From an uncultured Bacteroidales bacterium (GTDB lineage: Bacteria > Bacteroidota > Bacteroidia > Bacteroidales > UBA932), in assembly GCA_944325965.1 (NCBI GenBank), contig CALVCB010000016.1, positions 1-39,277 on the forward strand: a DNA stretch of 39,277 bases, given 5' to 3'. The first letter of the stretch is position 1. Each line of letters opens with the position of its first letter. A model generated the notes under the pieces. The model was not told where the DNA came from. It did not search any database and saw only the letters and a program-made list of their open reading frames with translations. Shown here in pieces: positions 19,293-37,572 of the stretch. Made by a program: the position numbers and the translations under genes.

Positions 19293-20393
19293 TTACCTGA
19301 TGCCGAAATATTCCTTGTATCTGTCGAAAAGGTGTCCGGCCTGGAGATAAGCCGACTGCGGGCTCATGAAGTGGGAGAACTCGAAAGTGATGGCCTTGTC
19401 GTATCCGCATCTTTTCGCCGCCTCGAGCTTCATCCTCAGCTTGTCGAACTTTATCGGGAGGAAGTTTATCGGCATGTCACGGTCGAATGTCTCCGCGTTT
19501 GTCCAGCACTGCATCCCGTACTTGTCGGCCAGTCTTTTGTTCACGGTGAAGAACGCGTCCAGCTCGTCATAGTCTATGTGCCCGTCCTGGAATGCGCATG
19601 CGTCAACTACATCGTGTATCCCGTCGAATATCTCGTCCCATTCCCTTTCGTGCTCGGCCACTGACACCGCCTGGTCGTTGGTCAGCTTCCCGGTGCCCAT
19701 GATGGCTTTCTTGCCGTCTATCCAAGGGGATATGAATGTAGGGAGTCCTCCGGATACATCCTTGCATTGCTTCCCCATCGCGTGGAAACCCTCAATGGCC
19801 CCTTTGGTCTTGCGGCTGATCTCCCCGCTTATGTACCATCCTCCGAAGCTGGTGTACTTCTCCCCGTACATCTTCCAGACCTCGTCGATCACGTATTTGT
19901 TGTCTTCTATCTCCTGCGACAGGTCTCCTGTGTCCCAGTATTTGCCTGAGTCGTAAAGTCCGAACCAGAATTTCATGCCGTATTTCTGCGCGAGCCTGAG
20001 GAACATGTCAATCAGGTCCACGGACGGCATGTAGCATCCTTTCTTCAGGAGGTACGGGGACGGGTATGTTATGAACTTCCTGTATCCTGACCTTATCACT
20101 ATGACCGTGTCTATCCCGATGGATTTCATGTGTCTGAAATCAGTGTCCCACTCTTTCTCGCCCCAGTTCTGGTGGGGGATGTCATGTGAGATCTCGTCAA
20201 GGAACGTCCCGGTGATCCTGAGCCCTTGGCCCATGGGGACAATGAGTCCGCCCGTTTCCGCCTGCCCGGGAAATGTTGTTGCCCTCCCCGCCGACAGGAT
20301 AGGGGAATTTTCTGCCTTGAGTATGCCCGGTGCCGCTATCGCCGAAGCCGCTGCCACCGCAGCTTTTTTCAGGAATGATCGTCTGTCTGTCAT
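19293..20393 (-). CDS. Tat-exported DUF4434-like putative glycoside hydrolase (paralogue 1)
   Basis: This 366-residue protein starts with a twin-arginine signal (TDRRSFLKKAAVAAASAIAAPG). The mature part reads as a TIM barrel of the DUF4434 type, from GTFLDEISHDIPHQNW to the C-terminus. Two glutamates stand out by comparison with the other two paralogues in the window: E191 in GWYISGE and E301 in WTNAETF, 110 residues apart. They fit an acid/base and nucleophile pair of a retaining (clan GH-A-like) glycosidase, which is inference; no activity is established by the sequence. It is the first gene of a leftward set with the MFS transporter. The -7 element TACATTTG at 20417-20424 precedes it. Confidence 0.75.
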   Translation of the reverse strand: MTDRRSFLKKAAVAAASAIAAPGILKAENSPILSAGRATTFPGQAETGGLIVPMGQGLRITGTFLDEISHDIPHQNWGEKEWDTDFRHMKSIGIDTVIVIRSGYRKFITYPSPYLLKKGCYMPSVDLIDMFLRLAQKYGMKFWFGLYDSGKYWDTGDLSQEIEDNKYVIDEVWKMYGEKYTSFGGWYISGEISRKTKGAIEGFHAMGKQCKDVSGGLPTFISPWIDGKKAIMGTGKLTNDQAVSVAEHEREWDEIFDGIHDVVDACAFQDGHIDYDELDAFFTVNKRLADKYGMQCWTNAETFDRDMPINFLPIKFDKLRMKLEAAKRCGYDKAITFEFSHFMSPQSAYLQAGHLFDRYKEYFGIR

Positions 20394-20416
20394 GGTGTAT
20401 TGAATTTTAATGTATG

Positions 20417-20424
20417 CAAATGTA
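20417..20424 (-). promoter_or_regulatory. -7 promoter element of the DUF4434-like/MFS unit
   Basis: TACATTTG on the minus strand matches TAnnTTTG exactly, giving an RNA start near 20410 and a leader of about 17 nt before the start codon at 20393. No -33 TTTG lies at the usual spacing. Confidence 0.55.
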
Positions 20425-20622
20425 TATATTAATTCTATATTATGAAAATAAATTTAAAATAAGCGTTGTATTTATAAATTATTATAATATTAATGGGATT
20501 GATTGTGTTGTTTGATGTAATTTGTAAATAATCTTATTGAGTGATTTTTATAAAAATATGCTGAATTTAATTTTACTATTGATTTTCTGTGTGATTTAAT
20601 AATAATTTTTTCGAAAAAATAT

Positions 20623-20651
20623 TTTGAGATATGATAAATTGTTTATATTTG
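20623..20651 (+). promoter_or_regulatory. Probable promoter of the SusC operon
   Basis: TATATTTG (20644-20651) matches TAnnTTTG. TTTG at 20623-20626 could be the -33 element but the 17-nt spacer is shorter than the usual 19-21. The RNA start would be near 20658, leaving a leader of about 85 nt before the SusC start at 20742. Confidence 0.5.
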
Positions 20652-20741
20652 CAATTGAAGATATTAAAATATTGGATATTTATTCTTTTGTTATAATAAA
20701 ATATGAATATAACTATACCTATTAATTAAAAATACTGCATT

Positions 20742-23700
20742 ATGAACTTTAATCTAAAAAAATTCCGGAAAATGGCATTTGCCATTTTATGTGGAATATT
20801 CTTAATGGGAGAGTTGACTTCAACTGCTGCGGCTGAGTCTTCTGTCTCAGGGAATGCTTCTGTTCAGCAGCAGGAGGGAAGACGGGTAGAGGGTGTTGTT
20901 TTTGACGAGAACCGTCAGCCTGTTGCCGGTGCAAGTGTCGCACTTCAGGAAAATCTATCGGTGGGAACTATTACAGATGTGGATGGAAATTTTTCAATCT
21001 CCGTGCCTTATGGAGAGTCTCTTGTTGTTTCGTTTATAGGTTATAAGGACGCTGTTGTCGAGACAGGGAATGAAAGTTTCCTTGAGATCCGTCTTGTCCC
21101 GGATTCCCAGGTGCTTAAAGAGGTCGTTGTGACTGCTTTGGGCATTACAAGGGAGTCCAAGTCTCTGGGTTATGCTATGCAGGAAGTTGAGGCTGCCGGC
21201 CTTCAGGAGAATAAAGCAGTGAGTGTGGCAAATATGCTTCAGGGCAAGATTGCCGGTGTGCAGATTTCTCAGTCGGGTTCCGGAATGGGCGGATCTACCC
21301 GTATTGTGCTCCGTGGCCTTAATTCCTTGAGCGGAGCCAATCAGCCGCTCTGGGTCATTGACGGTGTCCCTATCAATGACGGCACAACATCTCAGGCAGG
21401 ACAGTGGGGTGGAAAAGACTACGCAGGTTCAGCCTCTTCTATCAATCCGGAGGATATTGAAAGCATATCGGTCCTCAAGGGTGCCAATGCCGCTGCCCTT
21501 TATGGTTCCAGGGCGCAGAGCGGGGCAATAGTCATCACTACCAAGAAAGGGAAGTACGGACAGCCGTTGCAGATTGAATATAACGGCAATATCGAGTTCA
21601 CTTCTCTGTATAATCATATATATGAGTACCAGAATGTTTATGGACAGGGGTCTGATGGTGTATGGAGCAGTGACGCCAATTCAAGTTGGGGCCCTAAAAT
21701 GGAGGGGCAGAAGGTGCCCCACTGGCAGTCTTTGAAGTATGGAGACCAGGATTACGGAGAGATTTCTCTCCAGCCCCAGCCGGACTATTTGCATGACTTT
21801 TTCAGAACAGGTGTCTCATATAACAACAGCCTTACCGCTACAGCTGGTGGAGAACATATTACCGGCCGTCTTTCGTTTACGGACTCACGGAATGACGGAA
21901 TCACTCCGAACCACGCTATAAACAGGCAGTATTATGATATGAATACCGAGTTCAAGAACAAGTGGCTGACTGTAGGGGCTAAAGTCAATTATATGAGAGA
22001 AAGGACGGAGAATGCACCTGAGCAGGGAGTGTACAGCCTTATGAATCAGTTCAACAAGATGCCTAGGGGTATAAATCTTGATGATCTTAAGAATGCCGGC
22101 CTTACAGAGGACGGAATGGTTAAAAACTGGTCCGGCATTTCCCGGGAATTCCAGAATCCATATGGTATAGTAATGCCGGAAAACGGGAACTTGCGTGTCA
22201 GGAACAGGATTATAGGTCAGATACGTGCGAATGTACGTTTTACTGACTGGCTTAATCTTACAGGACGTGTCGGCATAGACTGGTTCAATGACAAGCATAA
22301 GGTATACAATTATTATCCTATACATGACTCCGTTTCAAGCCAATACTGGTATGGGCAATCTGACTATCAGGAGTTCAATGCCGATCTTATTCTTAATTTT
22401 GACAAGACTTTCGGGAATTTCAATGTGACTGCAAATCTTGGAACATCAGTATATAATACTTTGTATGATTCCGTTTCCGGTGAGGCAGGCATGTTTAAAA
22501 TACCTGGTTTCCATTGGATGTCGAATGGCAGTTTGAGACAGGCGTCTGAAGGTTATTCGAGAAAAGAAATCCAGTCAGTGTTCGGCAATGTGAGTGTAAG
22601 CTATAAGGATATGCTTTACCTTGATGTGACAGGAAGAAATGACTGGTCATCCACGCTTCCGTCTTCAAACTGGTCATATTTCTATCCGTCTGTAAGTTTG
22701 AGCGCTATCATTTCCGAGATGGTGGAAATGCCTGATGTGATCGATTTCCTGAAAATCAGAGGGTCCTGGGCTATGGTAGGAAATGATACAGGAGCATACC
22801 AGCTCGATTATGTATATAATTCATATCCATATAACCAGGTAAATGGCACGCTCCTGGAAATGTATCTTCCGGACATTTATCCTCTGAGAGACTTGAAGCC
22901 GGAACAGACTAAGTCATGGGAGGTCGGACTCGACTACAGGATGTTCAATGACAGGTTCGGTGTGGATTTTACATATTACAATTCACATACGGTAAATCAA
23001 ATCCTTGCGATAGGGACATCCGTGGTTTCTGGTTATGACTCCAAACGCATCAATGCCGGTAATATAAAGAGTTATGGTTATGAACTCATGCTCAGCGGCA
23101 CACCGGTGCTCTCGGGTGACTGGCAGTGGGATGTCAATATAAATTGGGGGCTTAACCGGACTGTGTGTCTTGAACTGGACGACGCAATCAAACGTCATAC
23201 ACTCGGGAGTATAGATATTGCCTCTGTTGTGATAGAAGAAGGTGGACGTTACGGTGATATAGTCGCCAAGAACGCATATAAGAGGAACGAGGCCGGTGAA
23301 ATATTGATTGATGACAATGGATTGCCTATAAAGGAGACCGACAAGGTTATAGGCAATATGACTCCGGACTGGACGGGTTCATTCGGTACTACTCTCAGGT
23401 GGAAAGGGGTGTCTCTTTATGCTCTGTTTGACGTACGTTGCGGCGGTGATTTTATATCCTTGACTGACGCTCTGGCGACTCAGGCAGGTACTTCAGCCAG
23501 AACTCTTGCCGGACGTGACGGAGACCTTGTCCTGAACGGAATAGTAGAGTCGACAGGTCAGCCAAATACGATTCCTGTAAGTTCGCAATCCTACTGGAGC
23601 AGTGTGGGCGGGACTACTGGTGTTGCAGAGGAATTTTTGTATGACGGCTCTTATATTAAACTGCGTGAGCTTTCTTTAGGATGGACACTTCCTCAGAAGT

Positions 23701-23888
23701 GGCTCCATAAGACTCCTCTTAAATCCGTAAGGATTTCTGCTGTCGCGAGAGATCTCTGCTTTATCTTCAAAAATGCGCCTGTGAATCCGGAGGGCGCTAT
23801 CGGAAGAGATGACTATGCGCAGGCATTTGAGCTTGGTTCTCTCCCTCCTACGCGTTCAATAGGTTTCTCTTTGAATGTCAAATTCTAA
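20742..23888 (+). CDS. SusC/RagA-family TonB-dependent outer-membrane receptor
   Basis: The 1048-residue protein begins with a signal sequence, then a carboxypeptidase-D regulatory-like domain (about residues 46-130: RVEGVVFDENRQPVAGASVALQ, TDVDGNFSISVP). It continues with the plug motifs KEVVVTALGITRESKSLGYA, ISQSGSGMGGSTRIVLRGLNSL and NPEDIESISVLKGANAAALYGSRAQSGAIVITTKKG. The remainder is barrel strands, ending RSIGFSLNVKF. The type imports oligosaccharides with its SusD partner, powered by TonB. SusD follows after 9 nt. It is the core import gene of the locus. Confidence 0.97.
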   Translation: MNFNLKKFRKMAFAILCGIFLMGELTSTAAAESSVSGNASVQQQEGRRVEGVVFDENRQPVAGASVALQENLSVGTITDVDGNFSISVPYGESLVVSFIGYKDAVVETGNESFLEIRLVPDSQVLKEVVVTALGITRESKSLGYAMQEVEAAGLQENKAVSVANMLQGKIAGVQISQSGSGMGGSTRIVLRGLNSLSGANQPLWVIDGVPINDGTTSQAGQWGGKDYAGSASSINPEDIESISVLKGANAAALYGSRAQSGAIVITTKKGKYGQPLQIEYNGNIEFTSLYNHIYEYQNVYGQGSDGVWSSDANSSWGPKMEGQKVPHWQSLKYGDQDYGEISLQPQPDYLHDFFRTGVSYNNSLTATAGGEHITGRLSFTDSRNDGITPNHAINRQYYDMNTEFKNKWLTVGAKVNYMRERTENAPEQGVYSLMNQFNKMPRGINLDDLKNAGLTEDGMVKNWSGISREFQNPYGIVMPENGNLRVRNRIIGQIRANVRFTDWLNLTGRVGIDWFNDKHKVYNYYPIHDSVSSQYWYGQSDYQEFNADLILNFDKTFGNFNVTANLGTSVYNTLYDSVSGEAGMFKIPGFHWMSNGSLRQASEGYSRKEIQSVFGNVSVSYKDMLYLDVTGRNDWSSTLPSSNWSYFYPSVSLSAIISEMVEMPDVIDFLKIRGSWAMVGNDTGAYQLDYVYNSYPYNQVNGTLLEMYLPDIYPLRDLKPEQTKSWEVGLDYRMFNDRFGVDFTYYNSHTVNQILAIGTSVVSGYDSKRINAGNIKSYGYELMLSGTPVLSGDWQWDVNINWGLNRTVCLELDDAIKRHTLGSIDIASVVIEEGGRYGDIVAKNAYKRNEAGEILIDDNGLPIKETDKVIGNMTPDWTGSFGTTLRWKGVSLYALFDVRCGGDFISLTDALATQAGTSARTLAGRDGDLVLNGIVESTGQPNTIPVSSQSYWSSVGGTTGVAEEFLYDGSYIKLRELSLGWTLPQKWLHKTPLKSVRISAVARDLCFIFKNAPVNPEGAIGRDDYAQAFELGSLPPTRSIGFSLNVKF

Positions 23889-23897
23889 ATTTAACAG

Positions 23898-25556
23898 ATG
23901 GTTATGAAATCGATAAAATATATTATAATCTCAGTAGCGGCGGCTGCCGTCGGATGTACCGGGAACTTCGAGGACATCAATACAAATCCGGGGACAGTTT
24001 CCAAGGTCAATCCTGCATATGTCCTTCCTTCGCTGCAGGAGTCAACAATGCATCTGTCCGCTACATACGGATACCAGACTGCGGAAAACTATATTCTGCA
24101 GAACTATTGCCAGTATTTCGCCAACACAAATGCGGCTTTGTCCTTGGACAGGTACGGATACGATGATTTATATGCGTCTGATTTGTGGAAACCGTATTAC
24201 AAAGCGCTGAAACATCTGAAGGTCCTTAAGGACGAAATCGCTGAATCTCCTGAGTACACAAACATTTATCAGATGATAAGGATTGTTGTGGCTCACGCTA
24301 CAATTGGAATGACAGACACGTTCGGCGATCTTCCGTATTTCGAAGCTGCATTGGCAGGGAATACTCCGGCGTACGACAGCCAGAAGGATATATATTACAA
24401 CGTGTTTAAAGAATTGACGGAGGCGTCTGACATACTTTCGCAGAATCTTGCCGGCCAGACTACATGCAATCAGGATACTGACCTGTTCTTTTCCGGTGAT
24501 ATCGACAAATGGCGTAAATTTGCAAATTCACTTCGCCTTCGCTGTGCCCTGCGTATTGTCTATGTCGATCCTGAGAAGGCCAAGTCGGAGGGAGAGGCTG
24601 CAATAGCGGCTGGACTTATGGAGAGCAATGAAGATAACTGCTATGTGCGCGTCATGGCTACAAACTGGGGGCATCCTCTGTACCAGGTGTCCAATTGGGG
24701 TGAATTCAGGATGAGCAAAACAATGGAGAATGTCCTGAAGCATACCAGTACGGTGCCTGATCCGCGTATGGAATTGTGGTTCGGCATGACAGCCAACTAT
24801 GTCCGCAAATATTATTCTGGGGAAAACAGCGATCTTTTGTATAAAGGGGAAAAATTCTCTGGTGTCCCTAATGGCCAGACTTCCGTTTCGCTTGGTGAGG
24901 CTGATTCTGACGGTTGGATAGCGAATTCTATAGACAATAACTCAAATGTATACGGGCTGATTGCATTCCCTGCGTGGAATCAAGGTAATGCAAAAGGCGG
25001 GGACACTTGTCCTGTCCCTGTGGCTAAGCCGTTGAAGGTTATGGTTTATGGTGAGGTTTGCCAGTTGAAGGCAGAAGCCGCTTTGAGAGGTTGGTCCGGA
25101 GCGGGTGATGCGGAGGAAAACTATCTGGAAGGAATTAGGGCGGCGATTGCGGACGAGCGCAGTTATGTCGATGACCCGTCAATATGCAATACGGAGAATG
25201 ACGAGACTTATATTACAACGGGTAATGTAGTCTGGGATGCTGCTGCGACTGACATTAAAGTGAATCTTGAGAAGATTGCTACCCAGAAATGGCTTGCAAT
25301 CTATCCGTATAGTTTTGAGGCTTGGGCTGAATGCCGCCGTACTGGTTTCCCTGAACTCATGCCTGTATATCAGAGCGATGACCCTGATATCAATCCGGCA
25401 AATAATGAGTTTATAAGAAAAATCCGCTATAGTGATGCAGAGCGCAGGGATAATGCGGAGCATTCTATGTCAAGTTCTCTGAATCAGGGTCAGGGAGACG
25501 GAATGGACGTGCGAGTATGGTGGGACACTGATGAGGGGAACTCTATTTCAGATTGA
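23898..25556 (+). CDS. SusD/RagB-family glycan-binding lipoprotein (SusD-like_2 type)
   Basis: The 552-residue outer-membrane lipoprotein has a signal ending in VAAAAVGC, with the lipidated cysteine at about residue 20, followed by FEDINTNPGTVSKVNPAYVLPS. That opening and the TDTFGDLPYFEA motif (about residues 138-150) are characteristic of the SusD-like_2 subgroup rather than classical SusD. The C-terminal region EKIATQKWLAIYPYSFEAWAECRRTGFPEL and NNEFIRKIRYSDAERRDN fits the same group. It binds the glycan at the cell surface and lids the SusC channel. Start could be 23898 or the ATG at 23904. It is co-transcribed with SusC. Confidence 0.95.
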   Translation: MVMKSIKYIIISVAAAAVGCTGNFEDINTNPGTVSKVNPAYVLPSLQESTMHLSATYGYQTAENYILQNYCQYFANTNAALSLDRYGYDDLYASDLWKPYYKALKHLKVLKDEIAESPEYTNIYQMIRIVVAHATIGMTDTFGDLPYFEAALAGNTPAYDSQKDIYYNVFKELTEASDILSQNLAGQTTCNQDTDLFFSGDIDKWRKFANSLRLRCALRIVYVDPEKAKSEGEAAIAAGLMESNEDNCYVRVMATNWGHPLYQVSNWGEFRMSKTMENVLKHTSTVPDPRMELWFGMTANYVRKYYSGENSDLLYKGEKFSGVPNGQTSVSLGEADSDGWIANSIDNNSNVYGLIAFPAWNQGNAKGGDTCPVPVAKPLKVMVYGEVCQLKAEAALRGWSGAGDAEENYLEGIRAAIADERSYVDDPSICNTENDETYITTGNVVWDAAATDIKVNLEKIATQKWLAIYPYSFEAWAECRRTGFPELMPVYQSDDPDINPANNEFIRKIRYSDAERRDNAEHSMSSSLNQGQGDGMDVRVWWDTDEGNSISD

Positions 25557-25609
25557 CGGGAAAGTTCCCGTATTCAGAATTGAATTTGGATAACAAGTTT
25601 TTTCTTGAG

Positions 25610-26671: not shown

Positions 26672-26715
26672 GCAAAGATGTATTTCGAGAGTCCGGCGAA
26701 CTGACATAAAATAAA

Positions 26716-29631
26716 ATGATAAAAAGAATTCTGATGCCAGTCTGTCTGGCGCTTGTATGCCATATTGTATCAGCCCAGACTGTTACAGTCAAGGATACTG
26801 TATATAAAACCTATCCGTTTTCAGACCCCAACCCGGTTCCGCAGCCGTCTGGGGTCTATCCTTATCACAAGTACGAGACATTTGCCTTTGAGCCTGTCGA
26901 AAAGACATGGAAAATGGTAATTCTTGAGAATGAGTATCTCAGGGTAAAGATATTTCCTGAAATAGGCGGCAAGATATGGTCAATATATGACAAGAAGCAC
27001 GGTAAGGAGCTTTTTTATGACAATGATGTCGTGAAATTCAGGGAAATCGCTCTCCGGGGACCATGGACAAGCGGGGGTATAGAGTTCAATTACGGTGTGA
27101 TAGGCCATGCCCCGTCCTGCTCCCACCCTGTAGATTACAAGGTCGAGAAGAAAGAGGATGGCAGTGTGAGCTGTTACATCGGTGTGATGGAACTCCTGAC
27201 GCATACGCGCTGGATGGTAGAGATCAATCTCCCGGAAGATGGAGTGTGGGTGCGGACACGTTCTTTCTGGCATAATTCTTCAGGTGCTTTCCAGCCGTAC
27301 TATTCTTGGGCCAATTCAGGTGTGGAGGTCTCGGAAAATATGAGACTGCTTTATCCTTCGGCTTATTCCATAGCACATGACGGCAGGATTTTCCCTTATC
27401 CTGTCGATGAGCGCGGCAGAGATTTGTCGGAATACTCCCAGCAGGGCTTCGGCCTGGATAAATCGTACCATCCGGGCGGTTCCCACAAGAACTGGTTCGG
27501 GGTATACTGGCCTGAAAGCGGCTCGGGTATGCTCCATTATGCGCTGCGGGACGAGAAGCTCGGCCGCAAATATTTCAGCTGGACACAGTCCGGGCAGGGG
27601 GAGATCTGGGTGGATCTTTTGACTGATACACGCCCCCAGTATGTGGAACTCCAGAGCGGGCGGCTTTTCAACCAGAATCTCTGGGAGAGTGTAAGTACTC
27701 CTTACAAGCAGACTCTTTTCACGCCTTACGGTACGGATGAATGGAACGAATTCTGGCTTCCGTTCTCGCAGATAGGGGACGATGTGGATGCCCTGACACT
27801 TAATGCTGCCGTCAATGTGGACTGTGACGGAGAGAGCATGTCGGTGGCCATCTATCCTTTGCGGGACATGGACGGACAGCTGGAAATCAAGGACGGGGAG
27901 GGCAACATTCTGTCCTCCAGACAGGTGTCCTTGAAAGCGGCTGAGGCGTTCGCCGGCACTTTTGAATTGCCCGGGACATCATCACCGGAAAAAATCACGG
28001 TAGGAGGCAGGACTTTGTGGACTGCCGCCGAGCAGAAGATAGACAGGCCGTCGGAGATCAACAGGGATTTCAGCCTTGATTCAGCCCAGGGGCTTGCCGT
28101 CTATGGCAAATACCTTGTGGGAATGAGAAAATATGCCGATGCCGAGTGGCGTATAGACAAGGCTCTGGAGATGGACCCTTCCCTTGTCCAGGCCCTCAAT
28201 TTGAAGGCCTTGCTGTGTCTGCGCAAGACAGACTATGAGGAAGCTTACCGTTATGCAGACAAGGTGCTTGCCATCGACCAGTATGACCCGCAGGCCAACT
28301 ACATAAGTGGCATGGCCGCCCTTGGTCTCGGCAAGAAGTACGATGCTATGGACAGGTTCGAGCTTGCAGCCATCACGCAGGAGCTCAGGAGTGCCGCATG
28401 CACTCAGCTTGCCCGCATCTATTTCCAGGACGGGGATTATGCCCTTGCCGGAGACTATGCGCGCAAGAGCCTTGTCGGAAATGCACACAACCTTTCCGCA
28501 TACTATATCCTCTACCAGATTTCACCGTCCGAGGATATTCTTTCTGAGATAAGGGCGCTGGACCCGCTCTGCCATTTCCCTGAGGTGGAAATGATGCTGG
28601 CTGGCGAACTGTCGGAAGAAGAACTCTCTGAATCAATCAGGGAAGAGATGGGCTGGCAGAACTATCTGGAATTTGCCGCTTTCTACACCGGTCTTGGACT
28701 GAAGGACAAGGCTGTCAGGCTTCTGGATGCCTGTCCTTGGGGCAATGCCCTGACAGCTCTGTGGTCGGCCTGGCTTAAGGGTGACGCGTCTTCGGTCAGG
28801 GACGCGGAGTCGGAATCCATATATCTGGTGTTCCCGTTCAGGCAGGAGTCTCTCAAACCGCTCAGGTGGGCTGTGGAGAACGGCGGAGGCTGGCGCAGCC
28901 GTTACCTTCTGGCCATGCTGGAAGACTTTCTCGGGCACAAGGAGAGCGCAATCGGGCTTCTTGATGGGGTGGATTCGGATTATGCACCGTACTACTGCTA
29001 CAGGAGCAACCTTACTGACTCTAAGGAAGATATGCAGAAGGCCCTTGAGATGGATCCGGACGAGTGGAGGTACCGTCTGTATCTCGCCCAGCGCTGCTAC
29101 GGGGAAGGCGATTATGACGGAGCTGTCGGTCTGACAGAAAAGTACTATGGCAGACATCGTGACAATTTCCATATCGGGGACATCTATGTCAAGTCCCTGA
29201 TAGCTGCCGGTGAGTATGGCAAAGCGGACAAGGTCATCACTTCCATGCGTATACTTCCTTTTGAGGGCCAGTCAGGCAGTCATGTGATGTACAGGGACAT
29301 CAAGCTCCACCTTGCGGCTGAGAGCATAGACCGGGGCCGATACAGCGAGGCCCTGTCGCGTATCGCCCAGGCGCAGGATTACCCTGAGAACCTCGGTGTG
29401 GGCAAGCCTTACGACGACCTTATAGACACTACTCTCGAGGACTGGCTTACAGCTATAGTCTACAAGAGACAGGGCGATGCGGCCAGGTCATCAGAGTATC
29501 TGTCCAGGGTGAAGAATGCTGTCCTTCTCGACTCATTCGAAAAGGTGACCACGAAAGTCGGTGGCAGATACCCTGAACTGATGTCGATGCTCGGCAACCT
29601 TGACGCTTCCTCCGACAAAAAGCTCTTCTGA
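26716..29631 (+). CDS. DUF5107-like exported protein with tetratricopeptide repeats
   Basis: The 971-residue protein starts with a signal peptide (MIKRILMPVCLALVCHIVSAQ). Residues about 50-420 match DUF5107: MVILENEYLRVKIFPEIGGKIWSIYDKKHGKELFYDNDVV and RGPWTSGGIEFNYGVIGHAPSCSHPVDY. This part recalls galactose mutarotase-like folds that bind sugars. The second half (about residues 455-960) holds repeated helical pairs such as YGKYLVGMRKYADAEWRIDKALEMDPSLVQALNLKALLC, typical TPRs. The protein follows DUF4838 by 44 nt without a new promoter, so it is probably the fourth gene of the SusC operon. A strong terminator follows. The function is unknown; glycan binding or mutarotation is only an inference. 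Confidence 0.82.
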   Translation: MIKRILMPVCLALVCHIVSAQTVTVKDTVYKTYPFSDPNPVPQPSGVYPYHKYETFAFEPVEKTWKMVILENEYLRVKIFPEIGGKIWSIYDKKHGKELFYDNDVVKFREIALRGPWTSGGIEFNYGVIGHAPSCSHPVDYKVEKKEDGSVSCYIGVMELLTHTRWMVEINLPEDGVWVRTRSFWHNSSGAFQPYYSWANSGVEVSENMRLLYPSAYSIAHDGRIFPYPVDERGRDLSEYSQQGFGLDKSYHPGGSHKNWFGVYWPESGSGMLHYALRDEKLGRKYFSWTQSGQGEIWVDLLTDTRPQYVELQSGRLFNQNLWESVSTPYKQTLFTPYGTDEWNEFWLPFSQIGDDVDALTLNAAVNVDCDGESMSVAIYPLRDMDGQLEIKDGEGNILSSRQVSLKAAEAFAGTFELPGTSSPEKITVGGRTLWTAAEQKIDRPSEINRDFSLDSAQGLAVYGKYLVGMRKYADAEWRIDKALEMDPSLVQALNLKALLCLRKTDYEEAYRYADKVLAIDQYDPQANYISGMAALGLGKKYDAMDRFELAAITQELRSAACTQLARIYFQDGDYALAGDYARKSLVGNAHNLSAYYILYQISPSEDILSEIRALDPLCHFPEVEMMLAGELSEEELSESIREEMGWQNYLEFAAFYTGLGLKDKAVRLLDACPWGNALTALWSAWLKGDASSVRDAESESIYLVFPFRQESLKPLRWAVENGGGWRSRYLLAMLEDFLGHKESAIGLLDGVDSDYAPYYCYRSNLTDSKEDMQKALEMDPDEWRYRLYLAQRCYGEGDYDGAVGLTEKYYGRHRDNFHIGDIYVKSLIAAGEYGKADKVITSMRILPFEGQSGSHVMYRDIKLHLAAESIDRGRYSEALSRIAQAQDYPENLGVGKPYDDLIDTTLEDWLTAIVYKRQGDAARSSEYLSRVKNAVLLDSFEKVTTKVGGRYPELMSMLGNLDASSDKKLF

Positions 29632-30200: not shown

Positions 30201-30277
30201 TAAAGGACACCAGGCGTCTTTATGACAGTCTGCGAAAGGAACTTCTTAAAAAGGGACTGATCAGTGAAAATGAATGA
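30197..30277 (+). CDS. Small ORF resembling the C-terminal helix of tandem-family member A
   Basis: This 26-codon ORF (MIKDTRRLYDSLRKELLKKG, then LISENE) resembles the terminal helix of the 107-residue protein (LEAYRRAKKTLQEEGVI). With the preceding ORF it reconstructs an abbreviated second copy in two frames, joined by ATGA. It may be a translationally coupled peptide or the tail of a broken gene. Confidence 0.45.
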   Translation: MIKDTRRLYDSLRKELLKKGLISENE

Positions 30278-30347
30278 AGACTCGTCAGAGTAGCGCCTAA
30301 GCGTCAGCGAGGCTTCCGGAAAAAGCAGTGCAGGAAGATTCCTCGGT

Positions 30348-30455
30348 TCAGGCATTCGGACTCCGTACGAGCCACTTGTCGATGTTCCTGGGCTCAGAAG
30401 AAAAATTCACCCCTATTGTGTAGACTTTACGGCTGTACCCCGCAAACGGAAGAGC
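30348..30455 (-). pseudogene. C-terminal remnant of a PD-(D/E)XK-associated AAA-ATPase
   Basis: On the minus strand a frame reads LPFAGYSRKVYTIGVNFSSE, then PRNIDKWLVRSPNA and a TGA at 30350-30348. This resembles the end of Bacteroidetes ATPase/PD-(D/E)XK nuclease proteins (PF09820/PF08011 type), which commonly finish with a GVNFSSE-like strand. No start or preceding domain exists: upstream the frame runs directly into the DUF4434 fragment at 30459, in a different reading frame. The match is to family memory only and covers about 34 residues. Confidence 0.55.
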
Positions 30456-30458
30456 GTG

Positions 30459-30574
30459 CTGCCGCTTCCTGTCCGGTGATGTCGCCTTCGGGCATCCTGG
30501 CGAACCCGAACGGGCACAGGATATCCAGGTTTTCCAGCAGGGCGGGGCAGGTGTCCAGCCCGTCCCGTATGCCG
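30459..30574 (-). pseudogene. Internal fragment of a DUF4434-like gene
   Basis: These 116 bp align to 34809-34924 in the same orientation with eight mismatches (93% identity) and no gaps. In frame they encode residues about 341-380 of the DUF4434-like lipoprotein, including GIRDGLDTCPALLENLDILC and FGFARMPEGDITGQEAA. Neither end is a gene end, so this is a gene fragment left by duplication or recombination. It lies 29 bp beyond the GH3 gene's stop. Confidence 0.9.
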
Positions 30575-30603
30575 CCCTGCTTGCTTAAGTGGACCGTTGG
30601 AAC

Positions 30604-32878
30604 TCAGATTATCCGTATTTTTATTCTCTGGTTCTGGACCATTATGTAATAGTCTCCTTTTTCAAGGAAACGTTCTCCGTCTTCATTGACGAAGCCAAGG
30701 TCTCTCAGCGGCTCTATCTCGAAAGTGAACGTACGGCTTTCTCCTGCTTTTATCATATGTTTTTCAAAGTGCTTCAGTTCCTTTACAGGGCGGGTGATTG
30801 TGCAGTATGGGTCGCATATGTACCACTGTACGGTTTCTTTGCCGTCTTTGTCTCCTGTATTGGTGACGGTTATCTGTGCCGTAAACTTCTGTCCGGATGA
30901 TATTTCGATGGTGTCATCCTCTGTCCCGGATGCTGTTCTGCCCCCGGGCAGGGTGGCTGTGAGCGGCCCGTAGTGGAAATCTGTGTAGCTAAGGCCATAG
31001 CCGAATTCAAACATAGGTGTGCTCTGGATGTCCTGGTATTCTCCTTGTGCGCCTGTGCGGCCGCTGTTCCTGTGGTTATAATATATTGGAATCTGCCCCG
31101 TGGAGTATGGGAATGTCACAGCGAGTTTCCCGGAAGGGTTGTATTTTCCGCTGAGTATGCCTGCGGTGGCAGGACCTGCCATTACTCCGGGCTGCCATAT
31201 TTCGAGCATCGCGTCAGCCATCGGAGCTATCCGGCTGAGGTCTACCGGCCTTCCGCTGGAGATGAGCACTGCTATGGGTTTTCCGGACTTTTTCAACTCC
31301 ACAAGCAGCTGCTCCTGTATTTCCGGAAGTGCGATGGTTGACCGTGATGCGTTTTCTCCGCTCCAGGCGCGTTTCTCCCCTAAGCAGAGCACTATGACAT
31401 CTGATTTTGAGGCGGCTGCCATGGCTTCGGGAAATCCTGATGTGTCCTCGCCGTCGAAGTCACACCCCTTGGCGTAGTTTACCTCAAACTCCCCTTCCTT
31501 TGATACGAGAATACCGTCATAGATACTGATCACGTCATCTTCACTCCCGCGTCCTTCCCAGGATCCGAGCATATCGAAGCGGTTCTTTACTATTGGGCCG
31601 ATAAGGGCAATCTTGGATGATTTCTTGAGGGGAAGCAGATTTTTGTCGTTTTTAAGAAGTACCATTGATTCCTGGGCAAGCTGCTCTGCTGTCTCAAGGT
31701 ACTCGGGAAGCAGGAATCTCTCTTTGGCTTCGGTTTCTGCTGTGTAGGGGTTTTCAAACAGCCCCAGCATGAATTTCAGCCTCAGGATGCGCCTTACGGC
31801 ATCGTCCAGCCTTTCCTGTGCTACGAGGCCTTCGCTTACCAGGTCCGCGAGATTCTCCCGGTAGCAATTGTCTACCATATCCATGTCAAGGCCGGCATTG
31901 AACGCATACAGAGTGGCTGTCTTCCTGTCCGGGGCCATGCCCTGGGTGATGAGCTGGTCGACTGCGTTCCAGTCGCCGACTACGAAGCCCGTGTGCCCCC
32001 ATTTTTCTTTCAGGACTTCTGTCATTGTATAATGGTTGGCTGACGCAGGAGTGCCGCTTATGGTGTTGAATGAGCTCATGAGCGTGGCTGCTCCCGCCTT
32101 TACCCCCCGCCTCGAATGAAGGCAGGTATGTGTCCCATAATGTCTGGCGGGAAATTTCGGTGGGGACATAGTCGCGTCCGGCTTCCGAAGCCCCGTAGCC
32201 CACATAGTGTTTCAGGCATGCGGCGATACTGCCTTCTGCGGACAGGTCATTGCCCTGGTAGGCCTTTACTGAAGTGGCTGACATTACGGAGCAGAGGTAA
32301 GGGTCTTCCCCGAATCCTTCCGCTATACGGCCCCATCTCCCGTCGCGGGCGATGTCCACCATAGGAGAGAAAGTCCAGTCGATGCCAGTTGCTTCCGCTT
32401 CCCTTGCCGCCACCCTGCATGCCTGGGCCACAAGGTCCGGGTTCCATGAGGCTGCCTGTCCGAGGGGAATCGGGAAAACGGTCTTGAATCCGTGTATTAC
32501 ATCGAATCCGAACAAAATGGGTATGCCAAGCCGGGTGTTTTCTATGGCTTCTTTCTGCATGGCATTGCGCAGTCTCGGGTCTGTTCCTACGAATATCAAG
32601 GAGCCTTCCTCTCCTGTAAATTTTTTTACTGTCTCTCCGATATTGTTTATATTGTCGTTGTTGCCGAGAACATACTGGCTTAGCTGGAGTATTTTCTCCT
32701 CAAGGGTCATGCGGGAAAGAAGGTCTTCGACCCGGCTGTCTATAGTGGCCCGGGCATCTTTGTAGATTGTCTTTTCTTCCTTTTTGTCTGCTGCCTGTAC
32801 GGGTGTGCCTGTCCAGGTCAATGATAGGCAGGATGCGACAAGAATTGCCGTTGCTGTCCTGATTGATAGTGGCTGCAT
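30604..32878 (-). pseudogene. bglX: GH3 beta-glycosidase (BglX-like), broken by one frameshift
   Basis: The first frame (from 32878) encodes a signal peptide (AILVASCLSLTWTGTPVQAA) and the GH3 N-terminal barrel (FGFDVIHGFKTVFPIPLGQAASW, WGRIAEGFGEDPYL, KHYVGYGASEAGRDYVPTEIS). After FEAG it leaves frame at a run of six G (minus strand, 32108-32103). Reading with one G fewer gives FEAGVKAGAATLMSSFNTIS, then the nucleophile region GFVVGDW (Asp about residue 300), the GEKRAWSGENASR acid/base loop and a C-terminal fibronectin-like domain, 757 residues in all. It could be a sequencing error, a pseudogene or a phase-variable gene. As it stands, translation stops at about 330 residues. GH3 enzymes remove terminal beta-linked glucose or N-acetylglucosamine. 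Confidence 0.9.
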
Positions 32879-32960
32879 TTTAATAAAAATTATTAATTAA
32901 TCTGCATATATTGTTATTTATATGAGTGCGGTGTAAAATATAAAAAATATTTAATATTAT

Positions 32961-32968
32961 CAAAAGTA
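32961..32968 (-). promoter_or_regulatory. -7 promoter element of the GH3 gene
   Basis: TACTTTTG on the minus strand fits TAnnTTTG. TTTG at 32988-32985 may be the -33 element with a 16-nt spacer, shorter than usual. The leader to the start at 32878 would be about 75 nt. Confidence 0.45.
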
Positions 32969-33109
32969 TAATGGTCATGCAGGGCAAATTCATTTGATAT
33001 ACGACAATATATATCTTTTCATTTCCGACATATCTTGTATTTCACGACTTTATCACATTTCCGTAATATTCCCGTGCTCCTGCCCTGCAGGTATCTGCAA
33101 TGGCGGATT

Positions 33110-34261
33110 TTAAATTGTCGGCAAGCTGCCGTATATTTTGTTTATCCACATCGCAAAAAGTTTGTCGGTCACTGAAAATGTTTTGTCGGCTTCCGTAACA
33201 AGGTCTTTATCCAAAAGTTTTCTTGCGGCCGACTGCACGGAACTGGCAGAGGTAAGGCTGTGGCGTTTGATGAACTCCGAAGATGTAATGTGTTCTGCTT
33301 CACCTTCCTTGGCTATGGCATACAGGAGTGTTTTCTGTTTTTCCGGAATATTGGACAGGATTTCACGGAAAATAGTGTCGTTTGACGCTATCATTTCATT
33401 GATTGCTCTGCGTATAGTTTCTATTGTACATTCAGCTCCTTCAGGAGTATCGGCAAAAGCCTCATTGAATGTTTTCTGCATGTAATACGTGTGTCCCTTG
33501 AACAGATTATACACTTTTTCGACATTGGCTGCATCAACCTTTCTCTGGCATTGTTTGAAATGGTTTACTACGAACGGAATATATATTTCGGGGGCAATGG
33601 CTTTCAGTTCCAGTATATCCGCACTATGATAAAATGGTCTGGCTGCCGAGGAAAACATTTCCTGCATCATGTGCCGTTCGCTCCCTGCGAATATAAAATT
33701 GCTGTTCTCCTGCTTCTGGATATGCGAACGCAAAAGAGCCTCGATGTTTCTTTCCGGATATTTGGCTATCTGCTGAAATTCATCAATGGCGACTATACAG
33801 CGCTTGTCCGCATGGCTCAGATACTGGAAAATTTCATCCAAAGTATATTCAGGTCGCTCTATATCGCCCAGCTCCATATTGAAAACCGGCAGACCTGACA
33901 TTGGGTCGAAACCGAATTTTCCCATGATGGACTTCAATGTCTGTATGAACAGTTTGGCCATCTTCCGGCTGTGCGGAAGGAGTGATTCATATATTTCCTT
34001 TCCCAGCAGGTAAGTAAATTCCCGCAGACTTGATGTATGCAATATGTCAATAAAGAAGGTGTAGTATTCTTTGCTGATTTCCGGCTTGTCATAGCAAAAC
34101 TGTATCAGACCTGTTTTCCCCATTCTCCGCGGAGATATGATGACAAGGTTATTGCCATTGGTGATGGACTTTATGAGCCTGGCAGATTCTGTGACCCTGT
34201 CGCAGAAATACTCAGGAGCTATCTTTCCGGTTACTATGAATGGATTTATTTTTGTCGCCAT
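33110..34261 (-). CDS. AAA ATPase with C-terminal winged helix (ATPase_2-like, PF01637 type)
   Basis: I start it at 34261 (MATKINPFIVTGKIAPEYFCDR), since an upstream in-frame ATG at 34279 lies inside the promoter's -7 element. The 383-residue product has Walker A ISPRRMGKTG (about residues 42-51), Walker B CIVAIDEF (about 155-162) and a sensor-like FAGSERHMM, then a helical lid and a C-terminal winged-helix-like region (about 310-380). Such ATPases are common in Bacteroidetes accessory regions and their role is unknown. The gene looks AT-richer than its neighbours by eye. It is transcribed alone from a strong promoter. Confidence 0.85.
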   Translation of the reverse strand: MATKINPFIVTGKIAPEYFCDRVTESARLIKSITNGNNLVIISPRRMGKTGLIQFCYDKPEISKEYYTFFIDILHTSSLREFTYLLGKEIYESLLPHSRKMAKLFIQTLKSIMGKFGFDPMSGLPVFNMELGDIERPEYTLDEIFQYLSHADKRCIVAIDEFQQIAKYPERNIEALLRSHIQKQENSNFIFAGSERHMMQEMFSSAARPFYHSADILELKAIAPEIYIPFVVNHFKQCQRKVDAANVEKVYNLFKGHTYYMQKTFNEAFADTPEGAECTIETIRRAINEMIASNDTIFREILSNIPEKQKTLLYAIAKEGEAEHITSSEFIKRHSLTSASSVQSAARKLLDKDLVTEADKTFSVTDKLFAMWINKIYGSLPTI

Positions 34262-34276
34262 GTAGAATGTTTTATG

Positions 34277-34308
34277 CAAACGTAATTATTTGATTTAAAT
34301 TATGCAAA
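34277..34308 (-). promoter_or_regulatory. Promoter of the AAA ATPase gene
   Basis: Minus strand: TTTG (34308-34305), a 20-nt spacer, then TACGTTTG (34284-34277), a full match to TAnnTTTG. Both boxes sit inside copies of a 10-bp direct repeat GTTTGCATAA (34309-34300 and 34281-34272). The RNA start near 34270 would be about 9 nt before the start at 34261. Confidence 0.8.
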
Positions 34309-34372
34309 CAGAATAATATAAAAATCTCGTTTAAATATTTCATAATAACCTCAGGTAGATCACCCTGTATGG

Positions 34373-34417
34373 CTTTACCGCCGGCTGCGGCTGGAATTGT
34401 CCAACCATTATAAATGA
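34373..34417 (+). pseudogene. Remnant of a HigB-like toxin C-terminus
   Basis: The frame LYRRLRLELSNHYK ends at TGA 34415-34417. LELSNHYK is the ending I recall for Bacteroidetes HigB/RelE-type toxins. Only about 14 codons remain and no start is present. It directly precedes the HigA-like remnant in the toxin-antitoxin order. Confidence 0.5.
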
Positions 34418-34424
34418 CGTGAAT

Positions 34425-34496
34425 ATGAGAAATTATACATGTCAGCGCCCCATGCATCAGGGCGAGCTTCTGAAAGAGGAAGTAGAATACAGGTGA
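34425..34496 (+). pseudogene. Truncated HigA-like antitoxin N-terminus
   Basis: A 23-codon frame reads MRNYTCQRPMHQGELLKEEV, then EYR and TGA. The HxGELLKEE segment is the hallmark start of HigA antitoxins (usually HPGEILKEE), here with Gln instead of Pro. The helix-turn-helix that should follow is missing. It starts 7 nt after the HigB-like stop, as in intact higBA operons. Confidence 0.55.
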
Positions 34497-34545
34497 CTGC
34501 CCAGACGGCGCTCTGATGTGCAATGGGGCAGGCAATAGATGCTCT

Positions 34546-35946
34546 CTACTGCCCGTCTATGTAGCTTTCGTATTCCCTGAACAGGTCTTCCGTCTTCTCT
34601 TCCCCGACCCGGATCCTTGCCCTGGGGTCGCTGAATACCCCGGGGAACTGGTAGCAGATGACCTTCTCGAAATTGCTGAATGTCTCGAGGTCGTCCGTGA
34701 TTCCATTGATGTCCCTCGGATACAGGGAGGCGTCGTCATAGAACAGGAAAGCCTCGAGGTCGAACCACAGGTGCGCTCCGGCCTTGTCGCACAGGCCTTG
34801 CAGTATGTCTGCCGCTTCCTGTCCGGTTATGTCGTCTTCAGGCATCCTCGCAAACCCGAACGGACACAGGATATCCAGGTTTTCCAGCAGGGCCGGGTAG
34901 GTGTCCAGCCCGTCCCGTATGCCGAAAGAGTTTGTGGCGAGCATGACGGGCTTGCCTGGGGCCAGCGAACCGCAGAAACTCTTGAACTCCTTGAAAAACG
35001 TCACTATTTCCTGCTTTCTCTGCGCCCTCATTTCCGGTGTCTTTTCCCAGTTGTCGAGGCTTCCTCCGGATTCTTCCGGCACATAGAAGCCGTAGAAGGA
35101 TTTGTGGTGGCCGTATCTTTCCCAGACCTCCCGGGCTGCCTGTTTGTGCCACTTGAGGGATTCTTCCGAGAAGTCGAACCATGCATACAGACCGATCCCG
35201 GGGAGCACATGCATGCCGAGTCTGTCCGCCTCGGAGAATATGGCCTCTACCGGGTCCTCTGCCGTAATCTGTACCCTTCCTCCGTACAGTCCGGAGTCAT
35301 AATATGCCTTCCCCGGATAGGTGTCTGCCGTCATTGTGTGTTTCCCGACGTATTCCTCGTTCCGGAAAAGCTCCTGGATGACGATTATATCCATTCCGAG
35401 CCTGTGCATCGACCTGACCATCATCCTCCAGTCCTCGTCCGTCAGTTTCCGTATGTCGTCGTTCCAGTGTTTCCCCTCTACTTCGCTCCAGTGGCATATC
35501 CCGACAAAGGCCCCTCCTGCTTTCTTCGTGGAACGGGTGCCGGAATGTATTATTGATGTATTGCCGGAAGCATATAATGTGTCTTTCCCGGATATTGCCT
35601 CAAGTACAATTGTATTGTCCCCTGAAATCTTTCCTGTTTCATATATGTGTTTCAGGCATATTGATTCTCCTGGTTTCACTTTTTCAGATTGGTTGAAAAT
35701 CTGTTCCTTGAGGCCGGCTTGTGTCCTGTATATGTTTATTTCGTATGTTTTTTCCTTGCGGCTGTTGTTTATGAGTCCGGCGCGGATGTCCAGGTCGGTT
35801 TTGTCGGTAATTTCCCCAGGGGGCAAGAGTGTGAGGAAAATGCTGTCTGCTCTGCCGCATGATGAAGAAATGAGAATCAGTGCAAGTGCAGCGGCAAACG
35901 GATGTCCGCAGGAAAAATTGCGTTTTTTTAGTGGTGGTAAAATCAT
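34546..35946 (-). CDS. DUF4434-like lipoprotein, putative glycoside hydrolase (paralogue 2)
   Basis: The 466-residue protein has a lipoprotein signal ending LILISSSC (cysteine 30). Residues about 35-140 form a beta-rich domain (DLDIRAGLINNSRKEKTYEINIY), probably the Ig-like module that sits before the barrel. The DUF4434-type barrel runs from about residue 145 (GAFVGICHWSEV) to the end. The two glutamates seen in the other paralogues are E292 in GFYVPEE and E398 in WFDLEAF, 106 residues apart. Surface anchoring suits trimming of glycans at the cell surface. It diverges from paralogue 3 across a 132-bp intergenic region. Substrate unknown. Confidence 0.75.
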   Translation of the reverse strand: MILPPLKKRNFSCGHPFAAALALILISSSCGRADSIFLTLLPPGEITDKTDLDIRAGLINNSRKEKTYEINIYRTQAGLKEQIFNQSEKVKPGESICLKHIYETGKISGDNTIVLEAISGKDTLYASGNTSIIHSGTRSTKKAGGAFVGICHWSEVEGKHWNDDIRKLTDEDWRMMVRSMHRLGMDIIVIQELFRNEEYVGKHTMTADTYPGKAYYDSGLYGGRVQITAEDPVEAIFSEADRLGMHVLPGIGLYAWFDFSEESLKWHKQAAREVWERYGHHKSFYGFYVPEESGGSLDNWEKTPEMRAQRKQEIVTFFKEFKSFCGSLAPGKPVMLATNSFGIRDGLDTYPALLENLDILCPFGFARMPEDDITGQEAADILQGLCDKAGAHLWFDLEAFLFYDDASLYPRDINGITDDLETFSNFEKVICYQFPGVFSDPRARIRVGEEKTEDLFREYESYIDGQ

Positions 35947-36049
35947 AATAATAAAATTTGACAGTAAAGTTAAATAATTATTGTAAATATGATGGGCTTA
36001 ATTATAAATAAAATTATAAATATTGTGTGATATATTGATAAAAATAATA

Positions 36050-36057
36050 TATATTTG
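36050..36057 (+). promoter_or_regulatory. -7 promoter element of DUF4434-like paralogue 3
   Basis: TATATTTG on the plus strand matches TAnnTTTG, 21 nt before the start codon at 36079, so the leader would be about 15 nt. No convincing -33 element is seen. On the opposite strand TAACTTTA (35972-35965) is a 7-of-8 match that may serve paralogue 2. Confidence 0.5.
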
Positions 36058-36078
36058 TGATAAAATCATTGTTTTTAT

Positions 36079-37572
36079 ATGAAGTCAAAGGTTGTGACAG
36101 CTATTTTTCTCTTGGTATTCCTCTGTGGCACTTTGCATGCGCAGACTAAACGTGTGACCGGGACGTGGGTCAATCTGTTCTGGCAGGACGAGAGAAACAA
36201 TTATATGAATCCGCATTATATCGACACGGCGGATCCTGAGTTCTGGCACCTTAAAATCAAGGAACTTCATGAAATGGGGATGGAGTATGTGGTTATCATG
36301 GCTGTGGCCAATGAGCAGAAGGCGGCTTATCCTTCTGCCTTTATGGAGCACTCTTATCCGGAAGGCCGCAAAAGTCCCGTCGAGGCGATAATGGATGCTG
36401 CGGACGAATGCGGTATGCATGTGTTCATGAGCTGCGGATGGGCAAAAAGCCAGCTTGATGACCTCAGGGATCCGGAAATTGTCAGGCTTCAGATTGAAAT
36501 AATGAAAGAGACGGCCGCTCTTTTCTCCGGCCATGAGTCATTCTACGGGTGGTATCTTCCTGTAGAAGACAGTCTTGAGCCGGTGCTGTCCGACCATGCT
36601 GTAGAGGCCGTGAATTCGATGGCGGGGAAGGCGCGGAGTCTCACCCCTGGGAAGAAGGTGATGATTTCTCCTTACGGGATATGCAATGCGGATTTCGGCA
36701 ATCCGGAATTTGCTGCACAGATACGCCGCCTGGAGGTGGACATAATAGCATATCAGGACGAGGTCGGATGTGTAAGGGAGCCTATGCCGATGAAGCGTAT
36801 GAAAGAGCACTTCAGCCTTCTCGGTGAGATTCATGAGGGCTCCGGCATAGAGTTCTGGGCCAATATTGAGTCGTTCACATGGGACAGAGAGACGAACAGC
36901 TGGTATTCGGCGCTTGTCCCGGCTGCGTTCGGACGGTATCTCTCCCAGCTTGTCGGAGTTTCCCGTGCCGGGGTTGGTAATGTGTTGAGCTTTTCGGTGT
37001 TCGGCATATATGACAAGCCCGGTTCTCCGATTCCGCTGGGTCAGCCTTTATGGGCCAATAGGGCGTATGCCGATTATATGGACTGGCTTGCTGGCAGGGG
37101 CAGGTGGCCGCTGCTTGAGGCCACGTTCTATGGCGACGTGCGCAATGGCGCGGAGGGAGCCGGTGTGGTTTCCTCCTCTGGCGGTGCGGCCGCGCTGGTG
37201 GACGGGAGTCTCGGGTATGAGGATTATAATGCCCCTGAATGGCATATGTCTCCTGATGGGGAAATGGCTGTCGTCATAGACCTTGGTGAGATCCGGCCGG
37301 TGGATGTGCTTGCAGCGCGTTTCCTTGCGTATGCTCCGGCATCGGTCTCTATTCCGGATATGGTCGATTTCTATGTGTCGGATACGGGGGAGTGCTATGA
37401 GAAGGTCAGCACGGTCGTGATGGAGAATACGGATAATGATCTGCATGACTGCTGGATAGATATTGCTATGGCCGACGGACTCGGCGCTTCGGGCAGGTTT
37501 GTCAAGGTGGTGGCGGAGTGTCACGGCTCTGCCATATGCTGTGACGAGATATTTGTCAACCCTGTTTATTGA
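36079..37572 (+). CDS. DUF4434-like exported protein with C-terminal discoidin-like domain (paralogue 3)
   Basis: The 497-residue protein has a signal peptide (MKSKVVTAIFLLVFLCGTLHAQ). The barrel starts at VTGTWVNLFWQDE and has the paired glutamates E163 in GWYLPVE and E264 in WANIESF, 101 residues apart. From about residue 365 a beta-sandwich follows (GSLGYEDYNAPEWHMSPDG, VVIDLGEIRPVDVLAARFL, ending GRFVKVVAECHGSAICCDEIFV), which resembles an F5/8 type C discoidin module likely to bind sugar. It precedes the AGE epimerase by 26 nt, so the two are probably one transcript. Substrate unknown. Confidence 0.78.
   Translation: MKSKVVTAIFLLVFLCGTLHAQTKRVTGTWVNLFWQDERNNYMNPHYIDTADPEFWHLKIKELHEMGMEYVVIMAVANEQKAAYPSAFMEHSYPEGRKSPVEAIMDAADECGMHVFMSCGWAKSQLDDLRDPEIVRLQIEIMKETAALFSGHESFYGWYLPVEDSLEPVLSDHAVEAVNSMAGKARSLTPGKKVMISPYGICNADFGNPEFAAQIRRLEVDIIAYQDEVGCVREPMPMKRMKEHFSLLGEIHEGSGIEFWANIESFTWDRETNSWYSALVPAAFGRYLSQLVGVSRAGVGNVLSFSVFGIYDKPGSPIPLGQPLWANRAYADYMDWLAGRGRWPLLEATFYGDVRNGAEGAGVVSSSGGAAALVDGSLGYEDYNAPEWHMSPDGEMAVVIDLGEIRPVDVLAARFLAYAPASVSIPDMVDFYVSDTGECYEKVSTVVMENTDNDLHDCWIDIAMADGLGASGRFVKVVAECHGSAICCDEIFVNPVY

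Follow-up and report, generated by a model that had tools for sequence, protein, structure and literature searches.

Why does a single locus of an uncultured Bacteroidales bacterium encode three members of the Pfam family DUF4434 (PF14488), and what might these proteins do? The locus lies on contig C16 (CALVCB010000016.1), which was analysed as a whole (39,277 nucleotides, hereafter the window) and belongs to a genome of 2.06 Mb that is 78% complete. An initial annotation had proposed three DUF4434-like paralogues here without giving their strands. The corresponding open reading frames (ORFs) exist, and a Pfam search assigns all three to DUF4434 above its curated cut-off of 30 bits: P0003 (19293..20393, minus strand; 299.7 bits, E = 3.2e-89), P0004 (34546..35946, minus strand; 116.2 bits, E = 2.6e-33), which has an N-terminal extension, and P0001 (36079..37572, plus strand; 137.4 bits, E = 8.9e-40), which has a C-terminal beta-rich domain. 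These are the only DUF4434 matches in this 78%-complete genome. P0003 is an orthologue of BT_0435 from Bacteroides thetaiotaomicron, whose structure was solved in 2012 (PDB 4h41; E = 1.2e-201, with 87% identity to chain C over 318 columns), while P0004 and P0001 are distant paralogues of that protein (18-19% identity for P0001). The reading that we favour, with a probability of roughly 0.6, is that DUF4434 proteins are mostly exported, retaining barrel glycosidases resembling clan GH-A of the glycoside hydrolases (GH), working within loci for the utilisation of glycans rich in N-acetylglucosamine (GlcNAc).

All three proteins contain two short patterns, each holding a glutamate, at the residues named in the initial annotation: E191 and E301 in P0003 (codons 19821..19823 and 19491..19493, minus strand), E292 and E398 in P0004 (35071..35073 and 34753..34755, minus strand), and E163 and E264 in P0001 (36565..36567 and 36868..36870, plus strand). 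The codons were checked, and the two glutamates are 110, 106 and 101 residues apart, respectively, which agrees with the range of 101-110 given before. Shuffling each protein 20,000 times never produced both patterns at a spacing of 80-140 residues, and BLASTP aligns P0003 with P0004 (22% identity, E = 8e-07), P0003 with P0001 (19%, E = 5e-08) and P0001 with P0004 (23%, E = 1e-14). Shared descent is the real cause of the common patterns. Beyond the window, a hidden Markov model built from 21 relatives, the window proteins among them, led to 148 unique sequences of at least 200 residues (9 of 157 aligned rows were excluded as short or identical), and both glutamates are kept in every one, 122 being of the P0003 type that dominates the set and 26 of other types. 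Some glycosidase-like barrels are pseudo-enzymes, and we found no measured activity for any DUF4434 protein; on these grounds the family could consist of inert or glycan-binding barrels that assist other enzymes of the locus. The invariance of both glutamates across very divergent paralogues (148 of 148) speaks against that explanation, which we regard as improbable.

Structure prediction places the glutamates where an enzyme of clan GH-A would have them. The model of P0003 (predicted local distance difference test score, pLDDT, 83.7; predicted template-modelling score, pTM, 0.80) is an eight-stranded barrel in which DSSP assigns strand 4 to residues 183-187 and strand 7 to residues 295-300, so that E191, the putative acid/base, lies four residues beyond strand 4 and E301, the putative nucleophile, directly follows strand 7. 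In the P0001 model (pLDDT 75.8), strand 4 spans residues 155-160 and strand 7 residues 258-264; E163 sits just past the former and E264 at the end of the latter. Thus, in both models, the glutamates are found at the strand ends or at most four residues past them, the positions of clan GH-A, and the (beta/alpha)8 barrel of that clan is seen in both models and in the 4h41 match. GH164 was assigned to the clan because its catalytic glutamates are likewise on strands 4 and 7 (PMC7105311). A Gln-Asp pair on strand 6 is also kept in 144 of the 148 relatives; the four exceptions are of the P0004 type, and P0004 itself lacks the pair. On this basis, DUF4434 proteins are likely, if unproven, retaining glycosidases, in which the strand-4 glutamate would act as acid/base and the strand-7 glutamate as nucleophile in a double displacement.

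Fold searches with the models return 4h41 first, through three chains for P0003 (E = 3.6e-55 to 2.9e-54) and at E = 3.8e-14 for P0001. After 4h41, P0003 matches GH164 (E = 1.7e-08), the Clostridium difficile protein Cwp19 (PDB 5oq3; E = 1.9e-08), GH53, GH10, GH1 and GH39, with, among others, a fucosidase (AlfB), human MANEA and a methionine synthase lower down. Cwp19, a GHL10-type barrel, belongs to a separate Pfam family and is 11% identical to P0003. The PDB title of 4h41 names an alpha-L-fucosidase, and a fucosidase identity for the whole family would fit that label and also the fold searches, in which the P0001 model matches several GH29 structures and the P0003 model matches AlfB. We nevertheless reject the title as a guide and consider a fucosidase highly unlikely: in searches of P0003, P0004 and P0001 at E up to 0.1 the GH29 profile is absent and only DUF4434 is matched, and the best fold matches of P0003 other than 4h41 are GH164 and Cwp19.

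The three proteins appear to leave the cytoplasm by different routes, although the assignments proposed initially differ in how well they hold up. The twin-arginine translocation (Tat) signal of P0003 is borne out by the NCBIfam TAT model (21.7 bits against a cut-off of 16.7). For P0004, the cysteine of the proposed lipobox is present, preceded by S-S-S; the usual lipobox consensus is different, and the assignment is doubtful. The N-terminus of P0001 looks like a signal by eye. Its C-terminal domain, described earlier as discoidin-like, has no Pfam match of its own; F5/8 type C (discoidin) matches appear in two P0001 orthologues, weakly and below the cut-off (9.9e-05 and 3e-05), and beta strands are modelled in this region, in part at low confidence. 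Among the P0003-type ORFs at 70% identity or more, 94 of 100 carry a Tat-like twin-arginine pattern as defined by a regular expression. The 22 less similar ORFs of this type divide into 8 with a Tat-like signal, 3 with a lipobox-like one and 11 with neither, several of the last being so short that they may have no signal.

How did one locus come to hold three copies? A quick maximum-likelihood tree built from 61 DUF4434 sequences, with the P0003 type thinned and long branches flagged, separates P0001, P0003 and P0004 into three supported clades. Because each clade also has members from other genera, the three are old, divergent paralogues as judged from their sequences, and a recent tandem duplication is rejected as their source. 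Within the same family, 27 of 119 genomes have a DUF4434 match (26 above the cut-off, mostly strong and of the P0003 type); within the order, 45 of 393 have one at E <= 0.001 (26 above the cut-off). The other two types are far rarer: at E <= 1e-20 in 247 genomes of the order, a P0001 query found none beyond its own genome and a P0004 query found one besides its own. Ten of the 393 genomes have at least two DUF4434 genes above the cut-off, and in seven of these (the genome studied here, G348, G666, G672, G704, G720 and G758) all copies lie within 25 kb. In G612, four of five copies lie within 13 kb, and G725 has two adjacent copies with pieces elsewhere. Six DUF4434 ORFs, two of them scanned with Pfam, are packed into 20 kb of Bacteroides oleiciplenus (L099), and they include a P0004-like (55%) and a P0001-like (43%) ORF. 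Since such clusters recur in other genomes, a locus with three DUF4434 genes is not an isolated case, and the three copies that the initial annotation found puzzling become less odd. In G643, six DUF4434 genes are spread over six contigs and form no single cluster.

The neighbours of these genes in the window suggest a glycan utilisation locus. Next to P0003 is a sugar porter of the major facilitator superfamily (MFS) (17837..19246, minus strand), identified by profile matches along with a ROK/NagC-like regulator (16550..17752, minus strand). On the plus strand there follow a SusC-like TonB-dependent receptor (20742..23888), recognised from its translation and the adjacent SusD match, a SusD-like lipoprotein (23898..25556; Pfam PF12741/PF12771), the putative DUF4838 lipoprotein P0002 (25610..26671) and a protein with DUF5107 and TPR domains (26716..29631; Pfam). 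Next to P0001 is an AGE epimerase (37569..38795, plus strand), closest to the N-acylglucosamine 2-epimerases. The initial annotation had counted four unassigned barrel proteins by adding P0002 to the DUF4434 set. P0002 belongs to a different family: its DUF4838 match (5e-17; 62.5 bits against a cut-off of 26.6) is partial, covering profile positions 30-214 of 325, it has no DUF4434 match and neither glutamate pattern, and PDB searches gave no convincing solved relative of DUF4838. On the minus strand, a GH3-like gene at 30604-32878 is apparently split into overlapping ORFs (30604-32205 and 31886-32878) by a frameshift or an assembly error; only the first ORF matched a GH3 protein (33%). Aligned with the locus L093, the window shows 97% DNA identity across 10.9 kb (9316-20246), which ends at the signal-peptide region of P0003. 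Past this point, SusC and SusD have no DNA match (the SusC proteins are 31% identical), whereas DUF4838 and the beginning of DUF5107 still show 75-90% similarity. The pattern resembles an exchange of SusC/D among close strains.

The same surroundings recur in related loci. The named loci compared here are the best 80 of 574, a sample that is therefore biased to close relatives of P0003 (the nearest named ones include Candidatus Cryptobacteroides, at 90 and 89% identity); 73 were retained after dropping 7 without an ORF labelled as P0003 type at >70% identity. The sugar porter is the next same-strand gene after the P0003-type gene in 63 of the 73. Partners within the fetched flanks were labelled by their best BLAST match to reference proteins, with Pfam run on representatives only; on these labels a ROK regulator is found in 40 loci, an AGE epimerase in 40, GHL10 in 31, the phosphodiester glycosidase NAGPA in 13, an oxidoreductase dependent on flavin adenine dinucleotide (FAD) in 11, DUF5009 in 7, GH20, CE2 and a metallophosphoesterase in 6 each, and a sialate-esterase-like protein in 4. 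The epimerases point to GlcNAc: those of Bacteroides finegoldii (L227) and L064 pass the NCBIfam N-acylglucosamine 2-epimerase cut-off of 600 bits (724 and 732 bits), while those of L063 (346 bits) and the window (311 bits) have this model as their best match below the cut-off, and the best solved match of the window epimerase is the N-acylglucosamine 2-epimerase 8bry (4e-118). In G666, on BLAST labels, a single run comprises an FAD oxidoreductase, DUF4434, the sugar porter, the epimerase, SusC, SusD, DUF5018, NAGPA, GHL10, a metallophosphoesterase, a sialate-esterase-like protein, DUF5009, a GH20/CE2-like protein and a second DUF4434.

Sialic acid had been put forward as the target of this locus. 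The Bacteroides nan loci for sialic acid share an AGE epimerase and an MFS transporter with the DUF4434 loci, and B. pyogenes carries a NanL-like lyase (DHDPS family) near its P0003-type gene. A NanL-like gene is, however, found in only one of the 73 named loci. The original suggestion goes back to the ORF at the contig end (38808..39275, plus strand), which is incomplete and only weakly like a sialidase N-terminal domain (Pfam 19.8 bits against a cut-off of 25; PDB E = 0.004). A locus for sialic acid only is therefore rejected, and the wider evidence points to GlcNAc.

Two partners stand out when whole genomes are compared. The expected values given here assume uniform hit placement and ignore contig ends, and the genomes sampled are related to one another, so that counts are not independent. 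Of the 42 genomes compared, all of which have DUF4434, 30 carry NAGPA, and in 15 of these it is located at most 20 kb from a DUF4434 gene (1.19 expected). An FAD oxidoreductase, counted at E <= 1e-40 and near any DUF4434 gene, not always one of the P0003 type, lies within 2 kb in 18 of 38 genomes (0.20 expected), within 5 kb in 25 (0.42 expected) and within 20 kb in 29 (1.47 expected), and the 18 genomes with the closest spacing span eight family codes. The alpha-N-acetylglucosaminidase family GH89 was rejected as a general partner: it is annotated at BT0438 and in the B. finegoldii locus of the P0003 type, yet it lies within 20 kb in 2 of 17 genomes (0.5 expected, not significant). This weak figure serves as a control, indicating that the NAGPA and FAD oxidoreductase figures are not simply a result of carbohydrate genes lying together. 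The oxidoreductase, the barrel and the metallophosphoesterase have been fused pairwise in evolution: FAD_oxidored (36-485) with DUF4434 (641-931) in a protein of 1078 residues (L075, 7154-10390), a metallophosphoesterase with DUF4434 in one of 728 residues (L099, 17635-19821), and a metallophosphoesterase with FAD_oxidored in another of 1078 residues (L062, 11465-14701). The last is the one of five metallophosphoesterase-FAD fusions that was scanned with Pfam, the others being assigned by clustering. The phosphoesterases of the L099 and L062 fusions differ in subtype, one having MetallophosN/C domains and the other lacking them.

This association allows a different chemistry to be proposed, in which the exported FAD oxidoreductase would oxidise a hydroxyl group of the sugar. 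The DUF4434 barrel would then process the resulting keto sugar by elimination or hydration, with its two glutamates as general acid/base. The 3-keto pathway of gut bacteria, with its Gfo/Idh/MocA enzymes, is a model for such a route, and both the close spacing and the fusions speak for it. The barrels themselves do not: the 50 listed fold matches per model are almost all glycosidases (the exceptions being a methionine synthase for P0003 and a branching enzyme for P0001) and include no isomerase-type barrel, and there is no Pfam isomerase or lyase match. In addition, the labelled oxidoreductase is confined to the 11 named loci noted above and is not among the labels of the window, and a plain hydrolase needs no more than the two conserved carboxylates. 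Redox-coupled cleavage is thus unlikely, but we keep it because plain hydrolysis leaves the tight link to the FAD oxidoreductase unexplained. Whether DUF4434 barrels and exported FAD oxidoreductases together form an undescribed redox-assisted system of gut Bacteroidota for cutting GlcNAc glycans, some of them bearing phosphodiesters, is similarly doubtful, and we offer it only tentatively.

Several observations weigh against the glycosidase reading that we prefer. None of the three window proteins has the Asn-Glu pair. An Asn directly before the acid/base is usual in clan GH-A, though not universal; P0003 has Gly, P0004 Glu and P0001 Val at this position, although 8 of the 148 relatives, all on one P1-like side branch of the tree, do have the pair, which speaks for the reading. 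In the GH164 beta-mannosidase Bs164, which is 10-13% identical to P0003 and P0001 in the fold alignments, this residue is Asn159 and forms a hydrogen bond to the sugar O2 (PMC7105311). The absence of this Asn may suit a substrate whose C2 carries a different group, for instance acetamido. Past 4h41, the fold matches of P0003 are distant (about 9-14% identity, with query TM-scores of about 0.4-0.5), and those of P0001 are a mixture led by a BT0459 entry and GH29 fucosidases that overlay poorly, with GH164 appearing from rank 12 at low TM-scores. Some P0003-type proteins of 307-317 residues have no signal at all and, from their sequences, may be cytoplasmic. No window ORF is labelled by BLAST as NAGPA, FAD oxidoreductase or GH20; a single NAGPA and a single strong FAD oxidoreductase are encoded elsewhere in the genome, on different contigs. 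GH89 has no match in the genome and shows the weak association given above. The P0004 type also has a neighbourhood of its own; the single locus of this type that was scanned (L074) contains a GH31.

If DUF4434 proteins are nonetheless glycosidases of this kind, their role can be sketched. The target would most likely be an N-acetylglucosamine-rich glycan that is partly phosphorylated and O-acetylated. SusC/D would bring oligosaccharides in, periplasmic DUF4434 proteins and partner enzymes would trim them, the sugar porter would take up the released monosaccharide, an amino sugar, and the cytoplasmic epimerase would interconvert GlcNAc and N-acetylmannosamine. The age and divergence of the paralogues make it probable that each attacks a different linkage within one complex glycan. 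In this sketch the family, the motif and its conservation, the modelled strand positions and the genomic partners are observed, and catalysis, retention, the sequence of steps and the substrate are inferred.

For the orthologue BT_0435, some regulatory context exists. BT0438, an alpha-N-acetylglucosaminidase, is three locus tags away. A study of iron deficiency in B. thetaiotaomicron lists BT0438 to BT0440, BT0442 (DUF4855) and BT0446-49 (DUF5009, family-10-like hydrolases and a calcineurin-like phosphoesterase) as lowered in expression; judged by tag number, these genes are neighbours of BT_0435, which itself does not occur in that text (PMC10434189). Two other papers on B. thetaiotaomicron do not mention the tags BT_0433, 0434, 0436, 0438, 0439 and 0440 in their main text. 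Two further observations concern B. finegoldii. Its P0003-type locus encodes a protein of 712 residues with no Pfam match (L227, 18721-20859), to which proteins in P0004-type loci of the window's genus are 42% identical (L074, 3291-5417; L073, 13971-16097). The 'plasmid 11' that holds this locus (L227, L229; NZ_OY725913.1) probably represents a chromosomal segment that the assembly closed into a circle, because it carries thrS, infC, rpmI, rplT and mfd.

In the open papers searched, neither DUF4434 nor PF14488 is mentioned, the string BT0435 occurs in papers whose titles indicate fish or mouse work, and searches on NAGPA/GHL10 and on new GH families found nothing; the family and one structure are known, and no function was found there. 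DUF4434 is thus a candidate GH-A-type glycosidase family with unusual partners. The conserved glutamates, the paralogue clusters and the link to the FAD oxidoreductase and NAGPA point to mutants, partners and substrates to try. If the proteins are hydrolases, they would found a new family of glycosidases, one present in common gut bacteria; if cleavage is redox-coupled, they would belong to a new route of glycan breakdown.

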